Positions 19,110-45,205 of a stretch of DNA of 64,000 bases are shown here, in pieces; position 1 is the stretch's first letter, and every line of letters begins with the position of its first letter. The notes below the pieces were generated by a model. That model was not told where the DNA came from and did not search any database. It worked only from the letters and a program-made list of their open reading frames with translations. The position numbers were made by a program, and so were the translations under genes. The DNA is taken from the NCBI RefSeq assembly GCF_002844195.1, contig NZ_PEND01000006.1:124001-188000 (forward strand), read 5' to 3'. The DNA comes from Halegenticoccus soli. Lineage in GTDB: Archaea; Halobacteriota; Halobacteria; Halobacteriales; Haloferacaceae.

Positions 19110-20477
19110 TCATCGATCCGCCGGATCGGGGGCCGACCCGCCCCCCGCCCACTCGCCCACGAACTTCGCCGCGAGGAGGGCCGTCGCCGCGGTCAGCGCC
19201 GCGGCGAACGCCACCACGAAGGCGGTCGTCGGATCGTCGACGCCCGAGGCCGCCCGCTCGCGGACGAACGACCCCGCCGTGACGGCGCTGACCGCGATCA
19301 GGGCGAGCCCGCCGACGTTCGCGAGCGCCGTCGGCGACCGCGGGACGGTCCCGGAGTCGTTCAGGAGGTAGAGGACGAGCGCGAGCGCGAACGGGGTGCC
19401 GACCAGCCCGAACGCGAGCACCAGCACCAAAAGCGGGAAGAAGGCCCCGCCGAGGAACGCGCCGCCCGCGCTGGCGAGGGCGACGGCGGCGAGGAGTCCC
19501 CGGTAGCGCGGGTCGGACCGGTCCGTCCCCCAGCCGAGCTTGTCCGCGAGGAGGTACGGCGGGACGACCGTGTTCCCGCCGAGCGTCGAGACCGCGGCGC
19601 CCCAGAGGCCGAGGAGAAACAGCCACTTCGCGTGCCCGCCGACGAGCGGGCCGAGCGCCTCCGCCGCGGCGGTCGCGGTCAGCGACCCGGCGTCGATCCC
19701 CGGCGCGTGGAGCGCGCCCGCCGCGACGAGGAAGATGGCGAGGCTGTAGGCGCCGAAGGCGACGAGCATCGACGCCCCGACGTCGGCGGTCGCCAGGCCG
19801 TAGTTCTCGCGGGTCCACCCCCGCGCCCGCACCGTGTAGGTGTGCATCGTGACGAGCGTGACGTGCACCGCCCCGCCGAGGATGCCCGCGGCGAGGAGCG
19901 CGCCGTCGACGCCCGCGGGGATCCGCGGGATCACTCCCGTCGCGGCCGCCCCGAAGTCGATCGGGACGACGGCGACCGAGAGCAGAAAGGCGAGCACGAT
20001 CGCCGAAACCAGGAGCTTCGCACCCCACTCGACGACACGGTAGCCGCCGCCCGCCAGCCCCACCGCGAGGACGACCGCCCAGACGACGCCCCAGACGCGC
20101 GCGTCGACGCCCGTCACCGTCTCGCTCACGTCCGCGACGGTTTTCATGATGACCAGCTGCGCCAGCCCCGCGGCCAAGACGACGTCGATGACCAGCAGCC
20201 ACGCCCAGCCGTCGCCGAGCCGGCGCTCGACGGTCGTCACGATCCCCTCCTCCGTCAGGAGGCCAAGCCGCATCGCGAGATACTGCGACAGCGCCCCCAT
20301 GACCGCCGAGAGGACGACGACCCACAGGAGCGCGTACCCGAACGCCGCGCCGGCCGCGAGCAGGCTCGCCATCGTCGCCGGCCCCGCCGCGATGGCGCCG
20401 GCCACCCATCCCGGTCCCGTCTCGGAAACGAGCGCTCGGAGGCCGCCCCCGCTCGTCTCTCCCCGTGTCTCGGTCAC
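19110..20477 (-). CDS. Nramp-fold transporter lacking canonical metal-binding motifs (paralogue 1)
   Basis: 455 residues with about eleven hydrophobic segments and the Nramp order. The first helix, normally DPGN at the metal site, reads AAGPATM (residues 31-36), and helix 6, normally MPHN, reads HVTLVTMHTYT. So the metal ligands Asp, Asn and Met-Pro-His are not in place, and the substrate may not be a divalent metal. Start GTG 20477 (VTETRGE) was preferred, as the upstream GTG at 20516 adds an unconserved tail. Alternative naming as a divalent metal transporter rests only on fold. Just past its stop another frame offers an acidic tail of 34 residues, noted separately. Confidence 0.82.
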   Translation of the reverse strand: MTETRGETSGGGLRALVSETGPGWVAGAIAAGPATMASLLAAGAAFGYALLWVVVLSAVMGALSQYLAMRLGLLTEEGIVTTVERRLGDGWAWLLVIDVVLAAGLAQLVIMKTVADVSETVTGVDARVWGVVWAVVLAVGLAGGGYRVVEWGAKLLVSAIVLAFLLSVAVVPIDFGAAATGVIPRIPAGVDGALLAAGILGGAVHVTLVTMHTYTVRARGWTRENYGLATADVGASMLVAFGAYSLAIFLVAAGALHAPGIDAGSLTATAAAEALGPLVGGHAKWLFLLGLWGAAVSTLGGNTVVPPYLLADKLGWGTDRSDPRYRGLLAAVALASAGGAFLGGAFFPLLVLVLAFGLVGTPFALALVLYLLNDSGTVPRSPTALANVGGLALIAVSAVTAGSFVRERAASGVDDPTTAFVVAFAAALTAATALLAAKFVGEWAGGGSAPDPADR

Positions 20478-37450: not shown

Positions 37451-38005
37451 TCAGGAACGGACGACGACCTCGCCGTCGACGACGTCGATCTCGACGAGGC
37501 TCTTGACCTCGAACGGGAGCTCCGGGGCGTCGACGCCCGCCACCGCGCGACGGACCACCACGACGACGTCGGCGAGCTCCGCCCCCGCGTCCAGGATCGC
37601 CCCGCAGACGGCTTTCAGCGTCCCTCCGGTGGCGAACACGTCGTCGACGACGAGAACGCGGTCGCCCTCGCGGACGTTGTTGAGGTAGAGTTCGCCCTCG
37701 GCGTAGCCCGTCGTCTGGTGGATCGGCACCTCGTCGTCGAAGCCGTAGGGGCGCTTTCGGACGACCACGAACGGAACGTCGGATTCGAGAGACAGCGCCG
37801 TCGCGTGGTGGATCCCCATCGCCTCGGGCGCGACGATCTTGTCCACGCCGTCGAGATCCGTCGCGGATTCGATCCCGCGGGCGATCTCGCGGAGCAGCGC
37901 CGGTTCGACGAGCGGGATGCCGTCCGTCACCGGGTGGACGACGTACTCGTAGCCGTCCCGCCGTATCACCGGCGCGTCCCGGAGCGATCGGAGCAGGTTC
38001 TCCAT
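37451..38005 (-). CDS. Purine phosphoribosyltransferase-family protein (HGPRTase-like)
   Basis: 184 residues. The PRPP-binding motif VLVVDDVFATGGT lies at about residues 117-129, and a KRPYGFDDEV segment forms the flexible hood region. It fits the haloarchaeal hypoxanthine/guanine phosphoribosyltransferase-like group, which salvages purine bases or acts in purine regulation. It is the last gene of the minus-strand group that includes the hydantoinase genes, 90 bases after the racemase-family gene, so co-transcription is possible but not certain. Confidence 0.88.
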   Translation of the reverse strand: MENLLRSLRDAPVIRRDGYEYVVHPVTDGIPLVEPALLREIARGIESATDLDGVDKIVAPEAMGIHHATALSLESDVPFVVVRKRPYGFDDEVPIHQTTGYAEGELYLNNVREGDRVLVVDDVFATGGTLKAVCGAILDAGAELADVVVVVRRAVAGVDAPELPFEVKSLVEIDVVDGEVVVRS

Positions 38006-38095
38006 GGTCGGCGGAACCTACGTCGGCGATCCCGTTCGCTCTTCCGGGCGGTCGCAGCGTCCGCGAGGCGCGCTCGTCCACCGGAATCGCGCGAT

Positions 38096-38821
38096 TCAGC
38101 GGCCGCCCAGGCGACCGGGAACCGATTCCGTCCCGACGCCGACCGTCCGGAGCGCGTCCCACAGCGTCGCCGCGTTGCTGGTGACGACCGGGACGCCGAG
38201 ATCGGCCTCCAGCGGCTCGATCGCGGGGAACGTCCGGTAGTTCGTACAGGAGACGAAGACCGCGTCCAACCCCCCGGAGTCGAGCGCCGCCCCCTCGACC
38301 GTCCGTCGGACCTGGCGGTGAGCGTCCTCCGGGGCCAGCGCGCCGATGGCCGTGTTGTCCTCGATCCCGCGGCCGTCGACGGCGACGACGGTCCGCCCGC
38401 CGGCTTCGAGGTACGCCACCTCGCGCTCGGTGAGGTCGTCGACGTAGGGCGTCGCGAGCGCGATCCGATCGGCCGACAGGGCCGAGAGCGCCCGATCGAC
38501 GGAGCGGGCGGTCGCGACCGCCGGCCGGCCGGCGGCCGCCGCGAGGTCGTCCTCCAGCCCCGCGGCGAACTCCCGGCCGTGGAGCAGGCTCCCGGAGGTG
38601 CAGGCGTAGGCGACCGCGTCCACGTCGGCGTGGGCGAGCCGCTCGGCGCACTCCGCGGCCGCGCCCGCCATCTCGTCGAGCCCCGCCGCCGTCACCGACG
38701 AGAGGGGCATCCGCGCCGCGTGGACACTCACGCCGTCCGGGACGGCCCCCGCGAACTCCGGCTCCGCGGTCGAGTTCGACGACGGGACGACGATCCCGAG
38801 CCGGGCGCGCCACCCGTGCAT
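38096..38821 (-). CDS. Asp/Glu racemase-superfamily enzyme (maleate isomerase/arylmalonate decarboxylase-like)
   Basis: 241 residues. The two catalytic Cys typical of this superfamily are in ACTSGS (about residue 74) and VSCTNYRT (about 190), so both proton-transfer bases are present. The N-terminus GIVVPSSNSTAEPEF is the usual substrate-binding strand. Members include maleate cis-trans isomerase, arylmalonate decarboxylase and hydantoin or Asp/Glu racemases. Placement directly after hyuB suggests it changes the stereochemistry of the hydantoin, oxoproline or product amino acid handled by HyuAB; that is inference. Confidence 0.85.
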   Translation of the reverse strand: MHGWRARLGIVVPSSNSTAEPEFAGAVPDGVSVHAARMPLSSVTAAGLDEMAGAAAECAERLAHADVDAVAYACTSGSLLHGREFAAGLEDDLAAAAGRPAVATARSVDRALSALSADRIALATPYVDDLTEREVAYLEAGGRTVVAVDGRGIEDNTAIGALAPEDAHRQVRRTVEGAALDSGGLDAVFVSCTNYRTFPAIEPLEADLGVPVVTSNAATLWDALRTVGVGTESVPGRLGGR

Positions 38822-38903
38822 CAGGCGGCCCTCCCGCGGGTGGTCATCGGCTCACCTCTCCGTCGGCGTTGGGTGACGTTCGTCGAGCCGCCTTCCCCCC
38901 GGC

Positions 38904-38924
38904 GTTCGGTGACCGTCACCGAAC
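38904..38924. promoter_or_regulatory. Perfect 21-base palindrome after hyuB
   Basis: GTTCGGTGAC-C-GTCACCGAAC: 10-base arms around one base, directly adjoining the hyuB stop codon and 83 bases before the racemase-family start. Possible operator or RNA hairpin. Confidence 0.45.
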
Positions 38925-40523
38925 TCATCGGACCACCTTCCCGTCGCGGCGGTCGCGCTCGCGCGCCTCGGGATCGCGCTCGGCCGGGTCGCCGTGCCCG
39001 CCCCCGCCGGGCGTGCGGACGGTGACGGTCGTTCCGGGGTCGACCTCGCGGGTCGTCTTCGCCGGGACCGGCCGGCCGTCGACGAGGTTCTCGCCGGTCG
39101 CGCCGTCCTCGCCCCCGGCGACGCCCCTCGGCGCGATGCGCCGGCGCTCGGTCAGAAGCGACACTGTCGCCGCCGCCTCCACGGTGACGGCGCGCTCGAC
39201 GCCGAGGCCGCCGCGGAACCTGCCGTCGCCGCCGCTGTCCGGCCGGAGCGCGTACCGCTCGACGCGGAGCGGGTACTCGGCCTCCATCGCCTCGATCGGC
39301 GTGTTGAGCGTGTTGGTCATCCCGACCTGCACGCCGTCCATGCCGTCCTTGTCGGGGCGCGCGCCGAAGCCCCCCGCGATCGTCTCGTAGTAGGTGAACC
39401 CCTCGCTCGTCCGGCTGCCGACCGTGAGGTTGTTCATCGTCCCCTGCCCCTGGGCGGGAACGCGGTCGGGCGCGGCCTTCGCCAGCGCCGAGAAAACCAC
39501 GTCGGTCACGCGCTGGCTCGTCTCGACGTTGCCGCCGACGACCGCCGCGGGCGGCCGGGGGTTCAGCACCGATCCCTCGGGGATGTCGACCTCGATCGGG
39601 TCGTAACAGCCCTGGTTCGGCGGGATCTCCGGGTCGGTCACGCAGCGGACGACGAAGTAGACCGCGCTGGTCGCGACGGCGAAGGGGGCGTTGACGTTGC
39701 CCGCGACCTGCTCCGCGGTGCCCGAGAAGTCGACGGAGACGCGGTCGCCGTCGATCTCGACCGCGACCTCGATCGGAACGTCCTCGTCCGTCACCCCGTC
39801 GCCTTCGAGCGCGTCGGCGGCGGCGTAGGTCCCGTCCGGGAGCGCTTCGAGTTCGGCGGCCATCCGGTCGCGGGAGTAGTCGATCACGGCGTCGAACGCG
39901 GCGAGGATTCTATCTCGGCCGCGTTCGGCGATGAGGGCGTTGATCCGGTCCTCGGCGCGCTCGTTGGCCGCGATCTGCGCGCGGAGGTCCGCCCGGCGCT
40001 CGGTCCCGTTGCGGACGTTCGCGAGCAGCAGCGTCATCACGTCGTCGTTGATCTCGCCGCCCCGGACGAGCGGCACCGGCGGGAGCCGGAGCCCCTCCTG
40101 GTACACCTCGCGCGCGCCCGCGGGCATGCTCCCGGGGGTCATCCCGCCGACGTCGGCGTGGTGCGCCCGGGAGGCGGCGTAGCCGACGACGGTCCCCTCG
40201 TGGGCGATCGGGGAGACCATCGTCACGTCCGGCAGGTGGGTGCCGCCGGCGAAGGGATCGTTGAGCACGTACACGTCGCCCGGTTCAGGCTCCCGGTCGA
40301 GCACCGCCCGGACGGCCTCGGGCATCGCGCCGAGGTGGACCGGGATGTGCTCCGCCTGCGCGACCAGCCGCCCGTCGGCGTCGAAGACGGCCGTCGAGCA
40401 GTCCCGCCGCTCCTTGATGTTCGGCGAGTAGGCGCTCGTGACGAGCACCTGCCCCATCTCCTCGGCGATTCCTTCGAGCCGGTTCCGCATGATCTCCAGC
40501 GTGATCGCGTCTAACTCCGTCAT
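38925..40523 (-). CDS. hyuB: Hydantoinase B / oxoprolinase C-subunit family protein
   Basis: 532 residues, normal length. Family blocks include [14 protein letters not shown], the [16 protein letters not shown] segment and the Gly-rich end [13 protein letters not shown]. Together with HyuA it forms the two-component ATP-dependent enzyme that opens a five-membered lactam or imide ring: N-methylhydantoin, 5-oxoproline, or in related complexes acetone or acetophenone carboxylation. It begins 16 bases after the hyuA stop, in one operon with the Nramp-like transporter and the racemase-family enzyme. Confidence 0.92.
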
Positions 40524-40539
40524 CTCTCACCTCCGTCGG

Positions 40540-42591
40540 TCACTCTTCCTCACCCCGTTCGAGGACGACCGAGCCGTCCTCCCGGACCGCCCCCGCCCAG
40601 CCGGGGGGGACGACCGTCGTGCTCTCGTTCTGTTCGAGAATGGCCGGTCCCGACAGGTCGATCGCCGGGCCAGGAGCTGACGCGGCGGACGAGCCGTCGA
40701 CGCTCCCGCGGCCCGCGCCGACGGGAAGCGCGTCGCGGTCGTAGACGGGCGTCTCGCGGAACCCGCCGTCGAAGAACGCCTCGCGGGTCCCCTTCAGCGG
40801 GTCGCCGTCGCCGCGGTACGTGAGCTCCACGGGCGGGCGCTCGCCGACGGCGGTCGTCCGGAGGTTGACGAGTTCGACCGGGTCGTCCATCCGGTAGCCG
40901 TAGGCCGCCTCGTGCGCCTCGTGGAACCGCGCCGCGACGGCCTCCGCGCCGAAGCCGTCGCCGACCAGGACGGTCAGCTCGAAGCTCTGGCCGACGTAGC
41001 GGAGGTCGGCCGCCCGCCGGACGCGGAGGTCGGCCGCCCCGCCCGCCCTCGCGCGCACGTCCGCCGCGAGGTCCTCGTAGGCGTCTCCGACGGCCGCCGG
41101 GTCCACTTCCGAGAGGGGCGTCCGGAACGTCCGGACGGCGTCGTGCTTCTCGTCGGCCGCGAGGAGGCCGAACGCCGAGAGCACGCCCGACGGCTGCGGG
41201 ACGATCACCCGGCCGATGTCGAGTTCGGCGGCGAGTTCGGCCGCGTGCATCGGCCCCGCGCCGCCGAAGGCGACGAGCGAGAACCCGCGCGGGTCGTGCC
41301 CGCGCTCGACCGTCGCGGCCCGGATCGCCCGGGTCATGTTCGCGTTGGCGACGCGGTAGACGCCGCGGGCGGCCGCGAGCGGGCCGTCCAGGTCCGCCTC
41401 CGCGTCGAGTTCCGCCAGTGCGTCGCGAGCGGCGTCCGCGTCGAGTTCGAGTTCGCCGCCGAGCGCCGAGCTCCCGCCGATGTAGCCGAGGACGACGTTC
41501 GCGTCGGTGACGGTCGGCTCTGCGCCGCCGCGGCCGTAACAGGCCGGTCCCGGCTCCGCGCCGGCCGAGCGGGGGCCCACCCGGAGCGCGCCGCCGGGAT
41601 CGACCCACGCGATCGAGCCGCCGCCCGCCCCGACGGTCGTCACGTCGACCATCGGCACCTTGATCGGGCGCTCGCCGATCCGCACGTCGGTCGTGCGCTC
41701 GACCTCGCCGCCGCGGACGAGGCTCACGTCGCTCGACGTCCCGCCCATGTCGAAGGTGACGAGGTCGCCCTCGGCGGCGTCGACGGCGCTCGCCCCGACG
41801 ACCCCGGCGGCCGGGCCTGACAGCGCCGTCGTGACCGCCCGCTCGCGGACCGTCGCGGCGTCGGCGATACCGCCGTTGGACTGCATGATCCGCGGGGCGG
41901 GCACGCCCGCCTCGGCGGCCCGCTCCTCCAGGCGGCCGACGTAGCGGTCGATCTTCGGCGTGACGTAGGCGTCGACGACCGTCGTCGACGCCCGCTCGTA
42001 CTCGCGGAACTCCGCGAGTACCTCGTGGGAGGCCGACACGTGCGCGTCCAGCTCCTCGCGGAGGACGTCGGCGACGGCGCGCTCGTTCTCGGGGTGGGCG
42101 TACGCGTGAAGGAGGCAGACCGCCACGCTCTCGACGCCGTCGTCGCCGAGCCGTCGGGCGAGCTCCCGGACCTCGCGCTCGTCGACCGGCGTCTCGATCC
42201 CCTCGACGGTCGCCCGCTCGTCCACCTCGTACCGGCGCCGCCGGGGGACCAGCGGCGCGGGCTTCTCCGCGTCGAGGTCGTACAGCGAGGGTCGGTCCTG
42301 TCGGCCGATTTCGAGCACGTCGCGGAAGCCCGCCGTCGTCACGAGCGCGGTCTTCGCGCCCGTCTCTTCGAGGAGCGCGTTGGTGGAGACGGTCATCGCG
42401 TGCGAGAACGCGTCGATCGCGTCGGGGGCGACGCCCGCGGCGTCGCACGCCTTCCTGATCCCCCGCATGACGCCGACGCTCTGGTCTTCGGTGCTCGGCA
42501 CCTTCACCGTCGTGAGTTCGGCGTCGGGCGACAGGAGCGCCACGTCGGTGAACGTGCCGCCGACGTCGACGCCGACGCGGTAGCCGCCCAC
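40540..42591 (-). CDS. hyuA: Hydantoinase A / oxoprolinase A-subunit family protein
   Basis: 683 residues. It carries the ASKHA-type ATP-binding domain, starting VGVDVGGTFTDVALL (residues 6-20), with the second phosphate loop in TFDMGGTSSDVSLV (about 274-287) and the FGGAGPMHA block near 440. It phosphorylates or activates the ring substrate with ATP before hydrolysis by HyuB. The start is GTG at 42591, which abuts the TGA of the transporter gene with no spacer, so translation is coupled. The exact substrate is not decided by sequence; the linked transporter and racemase favour 5-oxoproline or hydantoins. Confidence 0.92.
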   Translation of the reverse strand: MGGYRVGVDVGGTFTDVALLSPDAELTTVKVPSTEDQSVGVMRGIRKACDAAGVAPDAIDAFSHAMTVSTNALLEETGAKTALVTTAGFRDVLEIGRQDRPSLYDLDAEKPAPLVPRRRRYEVDERATVEGIETPVDEREVRELARRLGDDGVESVAVCLLHAYAHPENERAVADVLREELDAHVSASHEVLAEFREYERASTTVVDAYVTPKIDRYVGRLEERAAEAGVPAPRIMQSNGGIADAATVRERAVTTALSGPAAGVVGASAVDAAEGDLVTFDMGGTSSDVSLVRGGEVERTTDVRIGERPIKVPMVDVTTVGAGGGSIAWVDPGGALRVGPRSAGAEPGPACYGRGGAEPTVTDANVVLGYIGGSSALGGELELDADAARDALAELDAEADLDGPLAAARGVYRVANANMTRAIRAATVERGHDPRGFSLVAFGGAGPMHAAELAAELDIGRVIVPQPSGVLSAFGLLAADEKHDAVRTFRTPLSEVDPAAVGDAYEDLAADVRARAGGAADLRVRRAADLRYVGQSFELTVLVGDGFGAEAVAARFHEAHEAAYGYRMDDPVELVNLRTTAVGERPPVELTYRGDGDPLKGTREAFFDGGFRETPVYDRDALPVGAGRGSVDGSSAASAPGPAIDLSGPAILEQNESTTVVPPGWAGAVREDGSVVLERGEEE

Positions 42592-43830
42592 TCAGAACAC
42601 CCCCGCGACTTCGAGCAGCGTCCGGACGCCGAGCCAGACGACGACGAGCGTCACGATCCCGCCGAGGACGTTCTGCGCCGGGCTGTTCGTGTAGTTCCCG
42701 AGGATGTCGCGGTCGTTCATGACGTAGATCAGGAACAGGGCGACGATCGGCAGGAGGACGCCGTTCGCCACCTGCGCGAAGAGGATCACCTCGACGGGGC
42801 TGTACCCGAGCACCGAGGAGAGGACGCCGACGAGCAGGATCGTCCCCCAGACGGCCCGGAAGCGGGTCGACGTGAGGTCGCGCTCCCAGCCGAGCGCGCC
42901 CGCGGTCGCGTACGCGCCGGCCAGCGGGGCCGTCGTGGCGCTCGTGAAGCCGGCCGCGAACAGCCCGACGCTGAACAGCACCTTCGCGTGCGTCCCGGCG
43001 AGCGGTTCGAGCTGCTGGGCCATCCTGCCGACGTCGTCGATGCTCGTGCCGACGGGGAAGACGGCGGCCGCGGTCACCAGGATGGCCAGCGTGATGACGC
43101 CGCCGCCCACGATCGAGGCGATCGTGTCGGTTCGGCACTCGGGGAGCTCGCTCGGCTCCGCCCACCGCTCTTGAACGCTGCTCGCGTGGAGGAACAGGTT
43201 GTACCCGACGATCGTGGTGCCGATGAGCCCGGTGATCAGAAACAGCGATCCCTCGGGGACGCTCGGGACGAACCCGCCCGCGACGGCGCCGAGGTCGGGC
43301 CCGACCAGCAGCGCCGCGGCGAGGAAGGAGAAGGCCATCAGGACCACCAGCCCGACGAGCGCCTTCTCGATGAGCTTGTACCGCCCCGTGAAGAGGAGGA
43401 CGCCCGCGAAGAGCCCCATGAGCGGCGCCCACAGCGTCTCGCTCACGCCGGTGAGCGTCGCGAGGCCAGCGGCCCCGCCGAGGATGTTCCCCGCCTCGTA
43501 GGCGGCGGTCCCGATCCCGATGGCGCTGATGACGAGCGCGATGCTCGCGGCGCTCGCGATGGGGTTGTCGAACTGGGTGCGGAGCGCCTCGCCGAGCCCC
43601 TCCCGCGAGACGAGGCCCAGCCGGGCGCTCATCTCCTGGAGGATCACGGTCGCGACGATCGAGAAGGCGATCGTCCAGATGAGCGCGTAACCGAACCGCG
43701 CGCCCGTGACGCTCGCGGTCGTCACCGTGCCCGGGCCGATGAACGCCGCGGCGACCATCGCCCCCGGGCCGATCGCCTTCAGGCGTTCCGCCACTCCGAC
43801 TGTCCGTTCTTCGCGCTGTGTGAGTCCCAT
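42592..43830 (-). CDS. Nramp-fold transporter without metal-site motifs, linked to hydantoinase genes (paralogue 2)
   Basis: 412 residues with about eleven membrane segments. At the helix-1 metal site the canonical DPGN reads GPGT (residues 32-35), and at helix 6 the canonical MPHN is replaced in the segment IVGYNLFLHASSVQERW. Both metal-ligand sets are lost, so transport of Mn2+ or Fe2+ is unlikely. In Bacillus the Nramp-like ycsG lies in the 5-oxoprolinase operon, which supports a role here in taking up an oxoproline- or hydantoin-like compound. ATG 43830 (MGLTQREERT) was chosen because the longer frame upstream is unconserved. The gene is first in the operon and abuts hyuA. Confidence 0.87.
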   Translation of the reverse strand: MGLTQREERTVGVAERLKAIGPGAMVAAAFIGPGTVTTASVTGARFGYALIWTIAFSIVATVILQEMSARLGLVSREGLGEALRTQFDNPIASAASIALVISAIGIGTAAYEAGNILGGAAGLATLTGVSETLWAPLMGLFAGVLLFTGRYKLIEKALVGLVVLMAFSFLAAALLVGPDLGAVAGGFVPSVPEGSLFLITGLIGTTIVGYNLFLHASSVQERWAEPSELPECRTDTIASIVGGGVITLAILVTAAAVFPVGTSIDDVGRMAQQLEPLAGTHAKVLFSVGLFAAGFTSATTAPLAGAYATAGALGWERDLTSTRFRAVWGTILLVGVLSSVLGYSPVEVILFAQVANGVLLPIVALFLIYVMNDRDILGNYTNSPAQNVLGGIVTLVVVWLGVRTLLEVAGVF

Positions 43831-43891: not shown

Positions 43892-44080
43892 ATCGGTGTG
43901 CACTCGGGGCACACGTCGTATGATGCGATGTGAAAGCTATCGTCAGGCGTCCACCTACGGTTCCGGAGGAGACGCGACTTCACCGCCCTCCGGTTCTCGG
44001 ATCGTCACGATCGCGAGGAGTGAATCGCCTCCAGGGCGCGCTGCCCGACGAACGCTACCGGGAGAGTTCCTCCAGCGCAC

Positions 44081-44560
44081 TTATTCCCCCTCCCAGTAGT
44101 CCACGTCGTCGTCGATCCGGTAGTATCCTTCAAGGGACCGTTCGTCCCGTCCCCTCGGCGGTGATCCGACGTACACCCCGAATTTGTCCGAATCCGGGTA
44201 CACGGTCACGTCCGGTTGGTTCATCGTCGAGACGGTGAGGTATCGAAGCGGCGCGTCGGAGTCGTTGATCACTCGATGGCCGCCCGATTCGTCCGACGGA
44301 AACGCCACGTAGTCTCCCTCGTTGAGCGCGTACACGTCGCCGTCGAGGCGGAGCGTTCCGGTTCCGGCGAGCACGTACATCGCCTCTTCGTTCGCGGTGT
44401 GGTAGTGGTACGGCCACGACTTGCTTCCCGGCGGGAGCTCGTAGAGGCTACAACCGAGTCCTTCAGCTCCCGCTGCTTCGCTCAGCTGCTTCCGTCTGAA
44501 CTGTGCATCTCCGCGGACGAGTTCTGTCCAGTCGAGTTCGCCCTCGTTCGTGCGACCCAT
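44081..44560 (-). CDS. Cupin-domain protein
   Basis: 159 residues. A cupin barrel with first motif YHYHTANEEAMYVLAGTG (two His and a Glu as metal ligands) and second motif around VAFPSDESGGHRVIND (third His). It probably binds a metal and a small sugar-like or acid ligand. The end EGYYRIDDDVDYWEGE is acidic. It lies 250 bases upstream of the transporter gene on the same strand; whether it belongs to the same unit is unclear. Confidence 0.88.
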   Translation of the reverse strand: MGRTNEGELDWTELVRGDAQFRRKQLSEAAGAEGLGCSLYELPPGSKSWPYHYHTANEEAMYVLAGTGTLRLDGDVYALNEGDYVAFPSDESGGHRVINDSDAPLRYLTVSTMNQPDVTVYPDSDKFGVYVGSPPRGRDERSLEGYYRIDDDVDYWEGE

Positions 44561-44662: not shown

Positions 44663-45205
44663 TCACTCTTCGACGACCAGCACCTTCGAGACGCCCTCCT
44701 CGACCGCGAGGTCGAACGGCAGCCCCTCGGCGCTGCGCTCGATGAACCGGAGCATGAACCACTTCATCGACTCCGAGGGGAACACGACGTGGTAGGTGCG
44801 CTCGCCGGCCTCCCGGACCGTGAGAAAGCCGCAGAAGGACAGCCAGTCGAGCAGTTCGCCGGCCGAGTCGAAGCGGTTCCGGTACTCGGTCGCGTGGTAC
44901 TCGGAGACGCGGTCGGCGCAGTCAAGGAACGCCGGGTCGGGTTCACCCCCCTCGCCCTCGACGTGTTGCAGGAAGCAGTGGAGGAAGTCCACGTCGAGGA
45001 GGACGTGCTCGCCCGACGAGAGCATCTGGTGGTACTCTTCGAGGTTGGCGCTGGCGTCGGCGGTGGCCGCCTCGAAGTTGGCGGCGTAGAAGGTGAGCGC
45101 CTGCCGGACGAGTTCGCTCTGCCCGCGCCCGGTCCGCGAGACGAGGCTGTCCAGCGCGGATTGGGCGTCCGCGTCCATGGACACCGTGACTCTGTTCGTG
45201 GCCAT
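44663..45205 (-). CDS. Ribbon-helix-helix (CopG-like) regulator with C-terminal sensory-like domain
   Basis: 180 residues. The N-terminal 45 residues (NRVTVSMDADAQSALDSLVS, then ELVRQALTFYAANF) are a ribbon-helix-helix DNA-binding domain. The remaining ~135 residues form an alpha/beta domain with EEYHQMLSSGEHVLLDVDFL and FPSESMKWFMLRFIERSAEG, of unknown ligand. Such two-domain RHH proteins are common in haloarchaea. Its targets are not evident. Confidence 0.82.
   Translation of the reverse strand: MATNRVTVSMDADAQSALDSLVSRTGRGQSELVRQALTFYAANFEAATADASANLEEYHQMLSSGEHVLLDVDFLHCFLQHVEGEGGEPDPAFLDCADRVSEYHATEYRNRFDSAGELLDWLSFCGFLTVREAGERTYHVVFPSESMKWFMLRFIERSAEGLPFDLAVEEGVSKVLVVEE

Follow-up and report, generated by a model that had tools for sequence, protein, structure and literature searches.

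Here we report the analysis of an operon in the haloarchaeon Halegenticoccus soli in which the gene of an Nramp-fold transporter stands next to hyuA and hyuB, the genes for the two subunits of a hydantoinase/oxoprolinase. The operon lies in a window of 64,000 nt (NZ_PEND01000006.1, positions 124,001-188,000), of which the interval 37,451-43,830 was examined; coordinates below are those of the window unless a locus is named. The transporter belongs to a branch of Nramp-related proteins, called here the GPGT branch, in which the canonical metal-binding residues are replaced and whose genes adjoin hyuAB in haloarchaea and, in bacteria, the genes of PxpABC, a 5-oxoprolinase (PMC13274462, PMC10448178). 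We conclude that the operon is probably a 5-oxoproline (pyroglutamate) utilisation module, in which the GPGT protein serves as the importer of 5-oxoproline or of a closely similar cyclic amide acid. More cautiously, we lean towards a broader proposal for the GPGT/VxYN family of both domains, namely that it imports 5-oxoproline-type cyclic amides through a metal site rebuilt for an organic ring, and that the substrate has been kept while the partner enzyme differs, being PxpABC in bacteria and, in haloarchaea and some Bacteroidota, HyuAB.

Whether Nramp-fold proteins of nitrogen-catabolic operons carry an organic nutrient or Mn2+ is openly disputed (PMC13274462 versus PMC10448178). The GPGT branch is a clean place to settle this dispute, because its canonical metal site is gone and two unrelated enzymes of the 5-oxoprolinase type are its partners. 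If its cargo is 5-oxoproline, a widespread family would be mislabelled in databases, where matches carry the label 'Nramp family divalent metal transporter', and haloarchaea would gain a candidate pyroglutamate uptake pathway. The idea of an organic substrate for an Nramp-fold protein, presented as new in the original prediction, had already been proposed (PMC13274462). Within the searched literature, what appears to be new is that this separate branch is associated in bacteria with PxpABC and in haloarchaea with HyuAB, that two partner enzymes occur beside one branch, and that haloarchaea have a module with its own regulator and repeats.

Transcription on the minus strand proceeds in the order RHH protein, cupin, Nramp, hyuA, hyuB, PF17645 enzyme, phosphoribosyltransferase. 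The transporter, with its motifs in transmembrane helices 1, 3 and 6 (TM1, TM3, TM6), and its partner enzymes are located as follows.

42592..43830, minus strand: Nramp-fold transporter of the GPGT/VxYN branch, 412 amino acids (P0001; PF01566, 331 bits)
43726..43737, minus strand: TM1 motif GPGT, replacing the metal-binding DPGN (alignment of 120 branch members)
43486..43500, minus strand: TM3 motif YEAGN, with Asn where the canonical Glu stands (column mapping by alignment)
43198..43209, minus strand: TM6 motif VGYN, replacing MPHN (alignment of 120 branch members)
40540..42591, minus strand: hyuA, ATP-binding subunit of the hydantoinase/oxoprolinase (PF05378 and PF01968)
38925..40523, minus strand: hyuB, metal-site subunit (PF02538, 710 bits)
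38096..38821, minus strand: enzyme of the arylmalonate decarboxylase (AMDase)/maleate isomerase type with two catalytic-type Cys residues (PF17645, 127 bits)

Linkage of the GPGT branch to hyuAB and pxpABC

One set of 146 Halobacteriales genomes was searched for both PF01566 and PF02538, and the gene content of the loci was established by tblastn and a codon-model gene caller. By their scores, the Nramp genes listed divide into four groups (A to D); group A comprises the canonical DPGN/MPH type, and the window gene belongs to group B. The pair hyuA-hyuB stands directly downstream of 34 of the 37 group B Nramps, as against none of the 113 listed genes of groups A, C and D (Fisher p ~1e-30), and hyuB lies 2.07-2.35 kb downstream on the same strand, that is, one hyuA away. 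In the window, the TGA of the transporter gene abuts the GTG of hyuA and 16 bases separate hyuA from hyuB, just as the original prediction had stated. A count of the neighbours of the GPGT branch had been set beforehand as the test of that prediction, and the linkage is not confined to one genome: it is general in haloarchaea, far above chance, with Haloferax mediterranei, Haloarcula marismortui and Halocatena marina among the carriers of the module. An RHH homologue precedes the transporter in 29 of the 34 fetched haloarchaeal loci; of the 32 that are linked to hyuAB, 24 have an AMDase-type gene after hyuB. Three genomes depart from the pattern. One has hyuA with a split hyuB (G086, L065), which makes it the 35th with hyuB; another keeps the RHH and Nramp genes alone (G106, L063); the third (G140, L064, 8145-11070) has an operon of Nramp, AMDase-type and creatininase genes without hyuAB, where the creatininase is possibly a third ring-opening enzyme paired with the branch.

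When GTDB genomes were scanned with an alignment of archaeal and bacterial sequences, at least 589 relatives were found. The best 80, mostly bacterial, were kept; lying closest to a Pseudoalteromonas query, they sample bacteria unevenly. The pxpABC genes, identified by their Pfam and NCBIfam matches, stand beside the transporter gene in 32 of these 80 loci, usually on one strand in the order Nramp-pxpA-pxpB-pxpC, and the linked loci come from Bacteroidota, Pseudomonadota (Gammaproteobacteria), Bacillota and one Streptomyces. The copy of Natroniella acetigena shares 59% identity with P0001 and lies in an operon that reads pxpA, a gene of the D-glutamate cyclase family (PF07286), Nramp, pxpB, pxpC. 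The window operon has no pxpABC, and hyuAB occupies that place. In two metagenome-assembled genomes (MAGs) of Bacteroidota, a fused HyuAB of 1252 amino acids follows directly after the transporter. Even unlinked copies of the branch keep this company, since PxpA is encoded elsewhere in 24 of the 25 genomes with such a copy and HyuB in the remaining one. As a control, the branch occurs in 10 of 119 genomes of the order around one genome of the set (G146), and PxpA is present in all 10 of them versus 63 of the 119 overall (p=0.0015).

In a quick tree of 114 rows, the haloarchaea form one clade (99 in the Shimodaira-Hasegawa-like approximate likelihood ratio test) near the pxp-linked Bacillota, and the two MAGs with fused HyuAB fall inside the pxp-linked Bacteroidota (91-94). 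A careful tree of 60 rows gives the haloarchaeal clade 100/100 and its pairing with Bacillota 93/59. Taken together, tree and gene context tie the branch to two unrelated ATP-dependent ring-opening enzymes, with HyuAB at two separate places in the tree.

Residues and fold of the transporter and motifs of the enzymes

The earlier assignment of the first gene to the Nramp family and the altered helix motifs were confirmed by the PF01566 match and by FIGPGT in TM1 and IVGYN in TM6. Across 120 branch members, GPG is invariant in TM1 and followed by T or S, TM3 reads [YF][EQ]xGN with GN 99% conserved, and TM6 reads VxYN with V and Y at 100% and N at 99%. The second position of the TM6 motif is G in haloarchaea versus P in most bacteria (VGYN versus VPYN), and the remaining conserved residues of the three helices are alike in archaea and bacteria. 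Mapped by alignment and by the motif positions given in PMC12873925, the DraNramp residues D56, N59, M230, H232 and E134 correspond to G, T/S, V, Y and N in the branch. Since the acidic position of TM3 varies between E and Q, no conserved acidic residue remains at the former metal site in the 120 members. Measured against the canonical SLC11 proteins, the branch has the Nramp fold, lacks DPGN and MPH in 120 of 120 members, and has Asn in place of the TM3 Glu in 99%.

An AlphaFold2 model of the transporter (pLDDT 89.8, pTM 0.87) superposes on DraNramp and EleNRMT with template modelling scores of 0.77-0.81 in Foldseek. P0001 therefore shares its fold with DraNramp/MntH, whose DPGN, MPH and TM3 Glu are all replaced in it. 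EleNRMT shares the fold as well (0.81) but is 29% identical, and its TM1 aligns as NDAGG, not GPGT. We know of no link between EleNRMT and ring-opening enzymes. Members of the GPGT branch are at least 39% identical. The branch also carries the residues Y/F139, N143, V236 and Y238 of the orphan SLC11 outgroup, as far as these can be set against the text description of Cellier (PMC10606218), where the outgroup is marked by Y...N in helix 3 and V.Y in helix 6; both lack DPGN and MPH. The consulted text of PMC10606218 and PMC12873925 gives neither function nor gene context for that outgroup. The latter, a 2026 preprint, describes all Nramp-related groups except the NRMT-like and YcsG-containing ones as entirely uncharacterised.

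The closest functional parallels are PxpT of Corynebacterium glutamicum and YcsG of Bacillus subtilis, which are 50% identical to each other (PMC13274462). They resemble the GPGT branch in their Nramp fold and in an operon with an ATP-dependent 5-oxoprolinase, and the gene order of pxpTABC (transporter-pxpA-pxpB-pxpC) is that of the bacterial GPGT loci. They nevertheless form a separate Nramp branch: in the fold alignment YcsG (9a52) is 21% identical to P0001, below the ~27% of canonical DraNramp/MntH, so YcsG is not a close relative and its pxp link is a separate case. YcsG was accordingly rejected as a direct relative of P0001. Published roles for the YcsG/PxpT branch conflict. PxpT is required for growth on 5-oxoproline (PMC13274462), and YcsG, reported to import Mn2+ and renamed MntG, raises cell Mn and is regulated by MntR (PMC10448178). 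The analogy with ycsG on which the original prediction had leaned was thus indirect and overstated.

Two further types of Nramp-related protein were seen. A second one in the window (19110-20477, minus strand, 455 amino acids) has GPAT in TM1 and is 28% identical to P0001; its score group comprises 65 listed genes in the 146 haloarchaea, none with hyuAB linkage. A third type has GSGS in TM1 and adjoins a small membrane protein (L072, 7392-8657, minus strand, corresponding to G000:C1); at L073 that neighbour is TauE/SafE, with a creatininase-family gene on the other side.

The catalytic motifs of the partner enzymes are intact. HyuA keeps both phosphate motifs (DxGGTxTD and DxGGT) and the adenosine motif GxxPGP in 38 loci, and HyuB keeps the Asp-His-Asp-His set of CapB (D41, H96, D99, H121/H122). 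All ATP and metal-site motifs of the ATP-dependent lactamase family (HyuAB, caprolactamase, 5-oxoprolinase) are thus common to the window HyuAB, which scores far under the cut-offs of the curated CapA/CapB and Apc models. Lys40 of CapA was dropped as a discriminator of oxoprolinases, because no match could be made between its numbering and the chain. In one haloarchaeal locus (L187, 7038-11421), a hyuA-hyuB-AMDase cluster without Nramp is followed by dipeptide-type ABC transporter genes on the opposite strand.

The third enzyme, labelled an Asp/Glu racemase in the original prediction, is better described as AMDase/maleate isomerase-type, since PF17645 scores 127 bits and PF01177 barely reaches its cut-off. 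Its residues C74 and C192, at least 95% conserved, align with AMDase positions 74 and 188. AMDase proper has Gly74 and a single Cys188, whereas the window enzyme has Cys at both equivalents; it scores 124.5 bits against a cut-off of 225 in the curated AMDase model and is also under the EutA cut-off. Two catalytic Cys are a feature of maleate isomerases and two-Cys racemases, and a racemase role is plausible from these conserved residues. AMDase-type enzymes act on carboxylates; a carboxylate-binding isomerase beside a lactamase would fit 5-oxoproline or glutamate better than hydantoin.

Proposed function and its alternatives

In the proposed module, the GPGT protein would import 5-oxoproline through a LeuT-fold site in which Gly/Thr of TM1, Asn of TM3 and Val/Tyr/Asn of TM6 replace the metal ligands. 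HyuA would then phosphorylate the lactam with ATP, HyuB would open the ring at its metal site to give glutamate, and the two-Cys enzyme may alter the stereochemistry of 5-oxoproline or glutamate, converting an unfavourable enantiomer. The RHH protein would control the operon through TTCATA[CT] repeats. The case for 5-oxoproline import by the branch is comparative throughout, and it is in this way that we infer the substrate, direction and coupling ion of transport. The prediction of a ring-compound importer holds insofar as the branch is tied to a cyclic-amide pathway, through hyuAB in haloarchaea and pxpABC in bacteria; of the two substrates it had named, 5-oxoproline is favoured and hydantoin less so, because PxpABC is a 5-oxoprolinase, the module has no N-carbamoylase and the supposed racemase belongs to the AMDase type.

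A Liv-type importer of organic solutes can take the place of the transporter. In two haloarchaea (L177, L178), the genes run RHH, Liv-type binding protein, hyuA, hyuB, an MFS-like protein, Liv permeases and ATPases, and TTCATA[CT] repeats precede this operon as well. A further locus (L192) has RHH, hyuA, hyuB and creatininase genes, with a dipeptide-type ABC importer nearby. In these three loci, the ABC and MFS proteins were named by inspection, save for two tested with Pfam. That an organic-solute importer can fill the same slot, under apparently the same control, is an argument that the Nramp protein, too, carries a solute.

Several points weigh against the assignment of 5-oxoproline. The haloarchaeal loci represent one clade of one order and therefore show conservation, not independent origins. 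In the careful tree, support for Bacillota as the sister of the haloarchaea is modest, and the place of the MAG pair among the pxp-linked Bacteroidota is unsettled. Caprolactamase, a relative of HyuAB, has no 5-oxoprolinase activity (PMC8453981), so the substrate of HyuAB cannot be read from its sequence. The published 5-oxoproline genetics concern the other Nramp branch, that of PxpT, and Nramp-related proteins of nitrogen operons have been reported as Mn importers, both YcsG and MumT of Acinetobacter baumannii, which is encoded in a urea-carboxylase operon and affects Mn content (PMC5050338).

HyuAB is, moreover, not the sole candidate enzyme, because the genome has a PxpA-type cluster. The original prediction had noted the absence of a PxpA-type protein and had left the hydrolysis to HyuAB alone. 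The absence holds for the window but not for the genome, where such a protein is encoded on another contig, at G000:C5:243005, in a cluster with biotin carboxylase. LamB/YcsF proteins occur in 13 of the 37 haloarchaeal genomes with the branch versus 6 of the 109 others, and this co-occurrence led us to reject the reading that PxpA and the HyuAB module complement each other in haloarchaea. The organism may have more than one route. Haloarchaeal LamB/YcsF genes lie together with genes for biotin carboxylase, PxpB/PxpC-like proteins and a BCCP-like protein of 80 residues (L164, 2394-7713; L165-L175), and the cluster is possibly a biotin-dependent variant of PxpABC, not plain PxpABC.

An alternative that keeps the mechanism is that the haloarchaeal module handles another ring compound (hydantoin, a creatinine-type compound or another lactam), its substrate having shifted from that of the bacterial 5-oxoproline branch. 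PxpABC and HyuAB beside one transporter branch point instead to a shared substrate, the conserved residues of TM1, TM3 and TM6 are equal in both domains apart from the VGYN/VPYN difference, and the N-carbamoylase that a hydantoin product would need is missing from the module. That TM6 difference itself speaks for a shift, as do the best match of HyuA among solved chains, an N-methylhydantoinase (486 bits), the operon of L064 with its creatininase-family gene, and the separate PxpA-type cluster. On balance, we regard such a shift as unlikely.

The main rival to 5-oxoproline import is metal supply, in which the branch would import a divalent cation (Mn2+ or other) as a cofactor of HyuB or PxpABC and the linkage would reflect cofactor demand. 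It stays alive because HyuB needs metal and because YcsG and MumT show Mn phenotypes; the Asp-His-Asp-His site kept in HyuB binds Mn2+ in acetone carboxylase (PMC8453981), and EleNRMT transports Mg2+ without the canonical ligands (PMC12873925). We nevertheless judge it quite unlikely, as the ligands are replaced in the GPGT branch with no conserved acidic residue left, none of the canonical DPGN Nramps listed from the 146 haloarchaeal genomes is linked to hyuAB, the equivalent slot between RHH and hyuAB can carry a Liv-type solute-binding protein, and YcsG is another Nramp-related type. Finally, the transporter might be an exporter or osmolyte valve that releases 5-oxoproline or a glutamate-derived solute on osmotic change, with HyuAB as housekeeping repair, since some halophiles use 5-oxoproline as an osmolyte (PMC13274462) and HyuB occurs in 136 of the 146 haloarchaeal genomes, with hyuAB often lacking a transporter, as would fit housekeeping against spontaneously formed 5-oxoproline; this is very improbable in view of the Liv-type binding-protein importer in the same position and of the PxpT genetics, which point to uptake.

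Regulator, repeats and neighbouring genes

The gene set originally described was incomplete, as it overlooked the RHH regulator at the head of the module. The remaining features of the locus are as follows.

44663..45205, minus strand: CopG/RHH regulator, 180 amino acids, its C-terminal domain without an assigned family; head of the conserved module (PF01402, 30 bits)
44081..44560, minus strand: cupin_2 protein between regulator and transporter (PF07883, 66 bits)
43918..43934, minus strand: probable operator with degenerate repeats TTCACAT and ATCATAC at 10-bp spacing (by eye)
37451..38005, minus strand: archaeal hypoxanthine/adenine phosphoribosyltransferase, a neighbour outside the module (NF040646, 231 bits, cut-off 200)

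The cupin was rejected as a part of the module, there being no cupin match between regulator and transporter at the other loci, and so was the phosphoribosyltransferase, which adjoins the module in the window and at none of the other module loci.

The C-terminal part of the RHH protein has the invariant residues H67, D71, D73, H76, H104, E107 and C125. A Pfam search of the protein gave no support beyond RHH, and a role as a NikR-type metal sensor was rejected on this result. Its predicted structure reaches a modest pLDDT of 73, and Foldseek found nothing below E 0.001; weak, non-significant fold matches of the C-terminal domain included H-NOX, TRAPP/Bet3 and YslB structures.

A mechanical call extends the transporter gene to 43983, giving a protein of 428 amino acids whose residues 1-14 have pLDDT below 50 in the AlphaFold2 model and whose reading frame overlaps the likely operator. 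The likely start is at 43830, a placement supported by the degenerate repeats at 43934-43918, which fall inside this over-long frame. The window copies include no exact match to TTCATA[CT]. At other loci, the gap after the RHH gene holds TTCATA[CT] repeats, which are often spaced by exactly 10 bp; 35 sites in 4.5 kb of gap sequence amount to 7.8 per kb versus 0.126 per kb over the loci.

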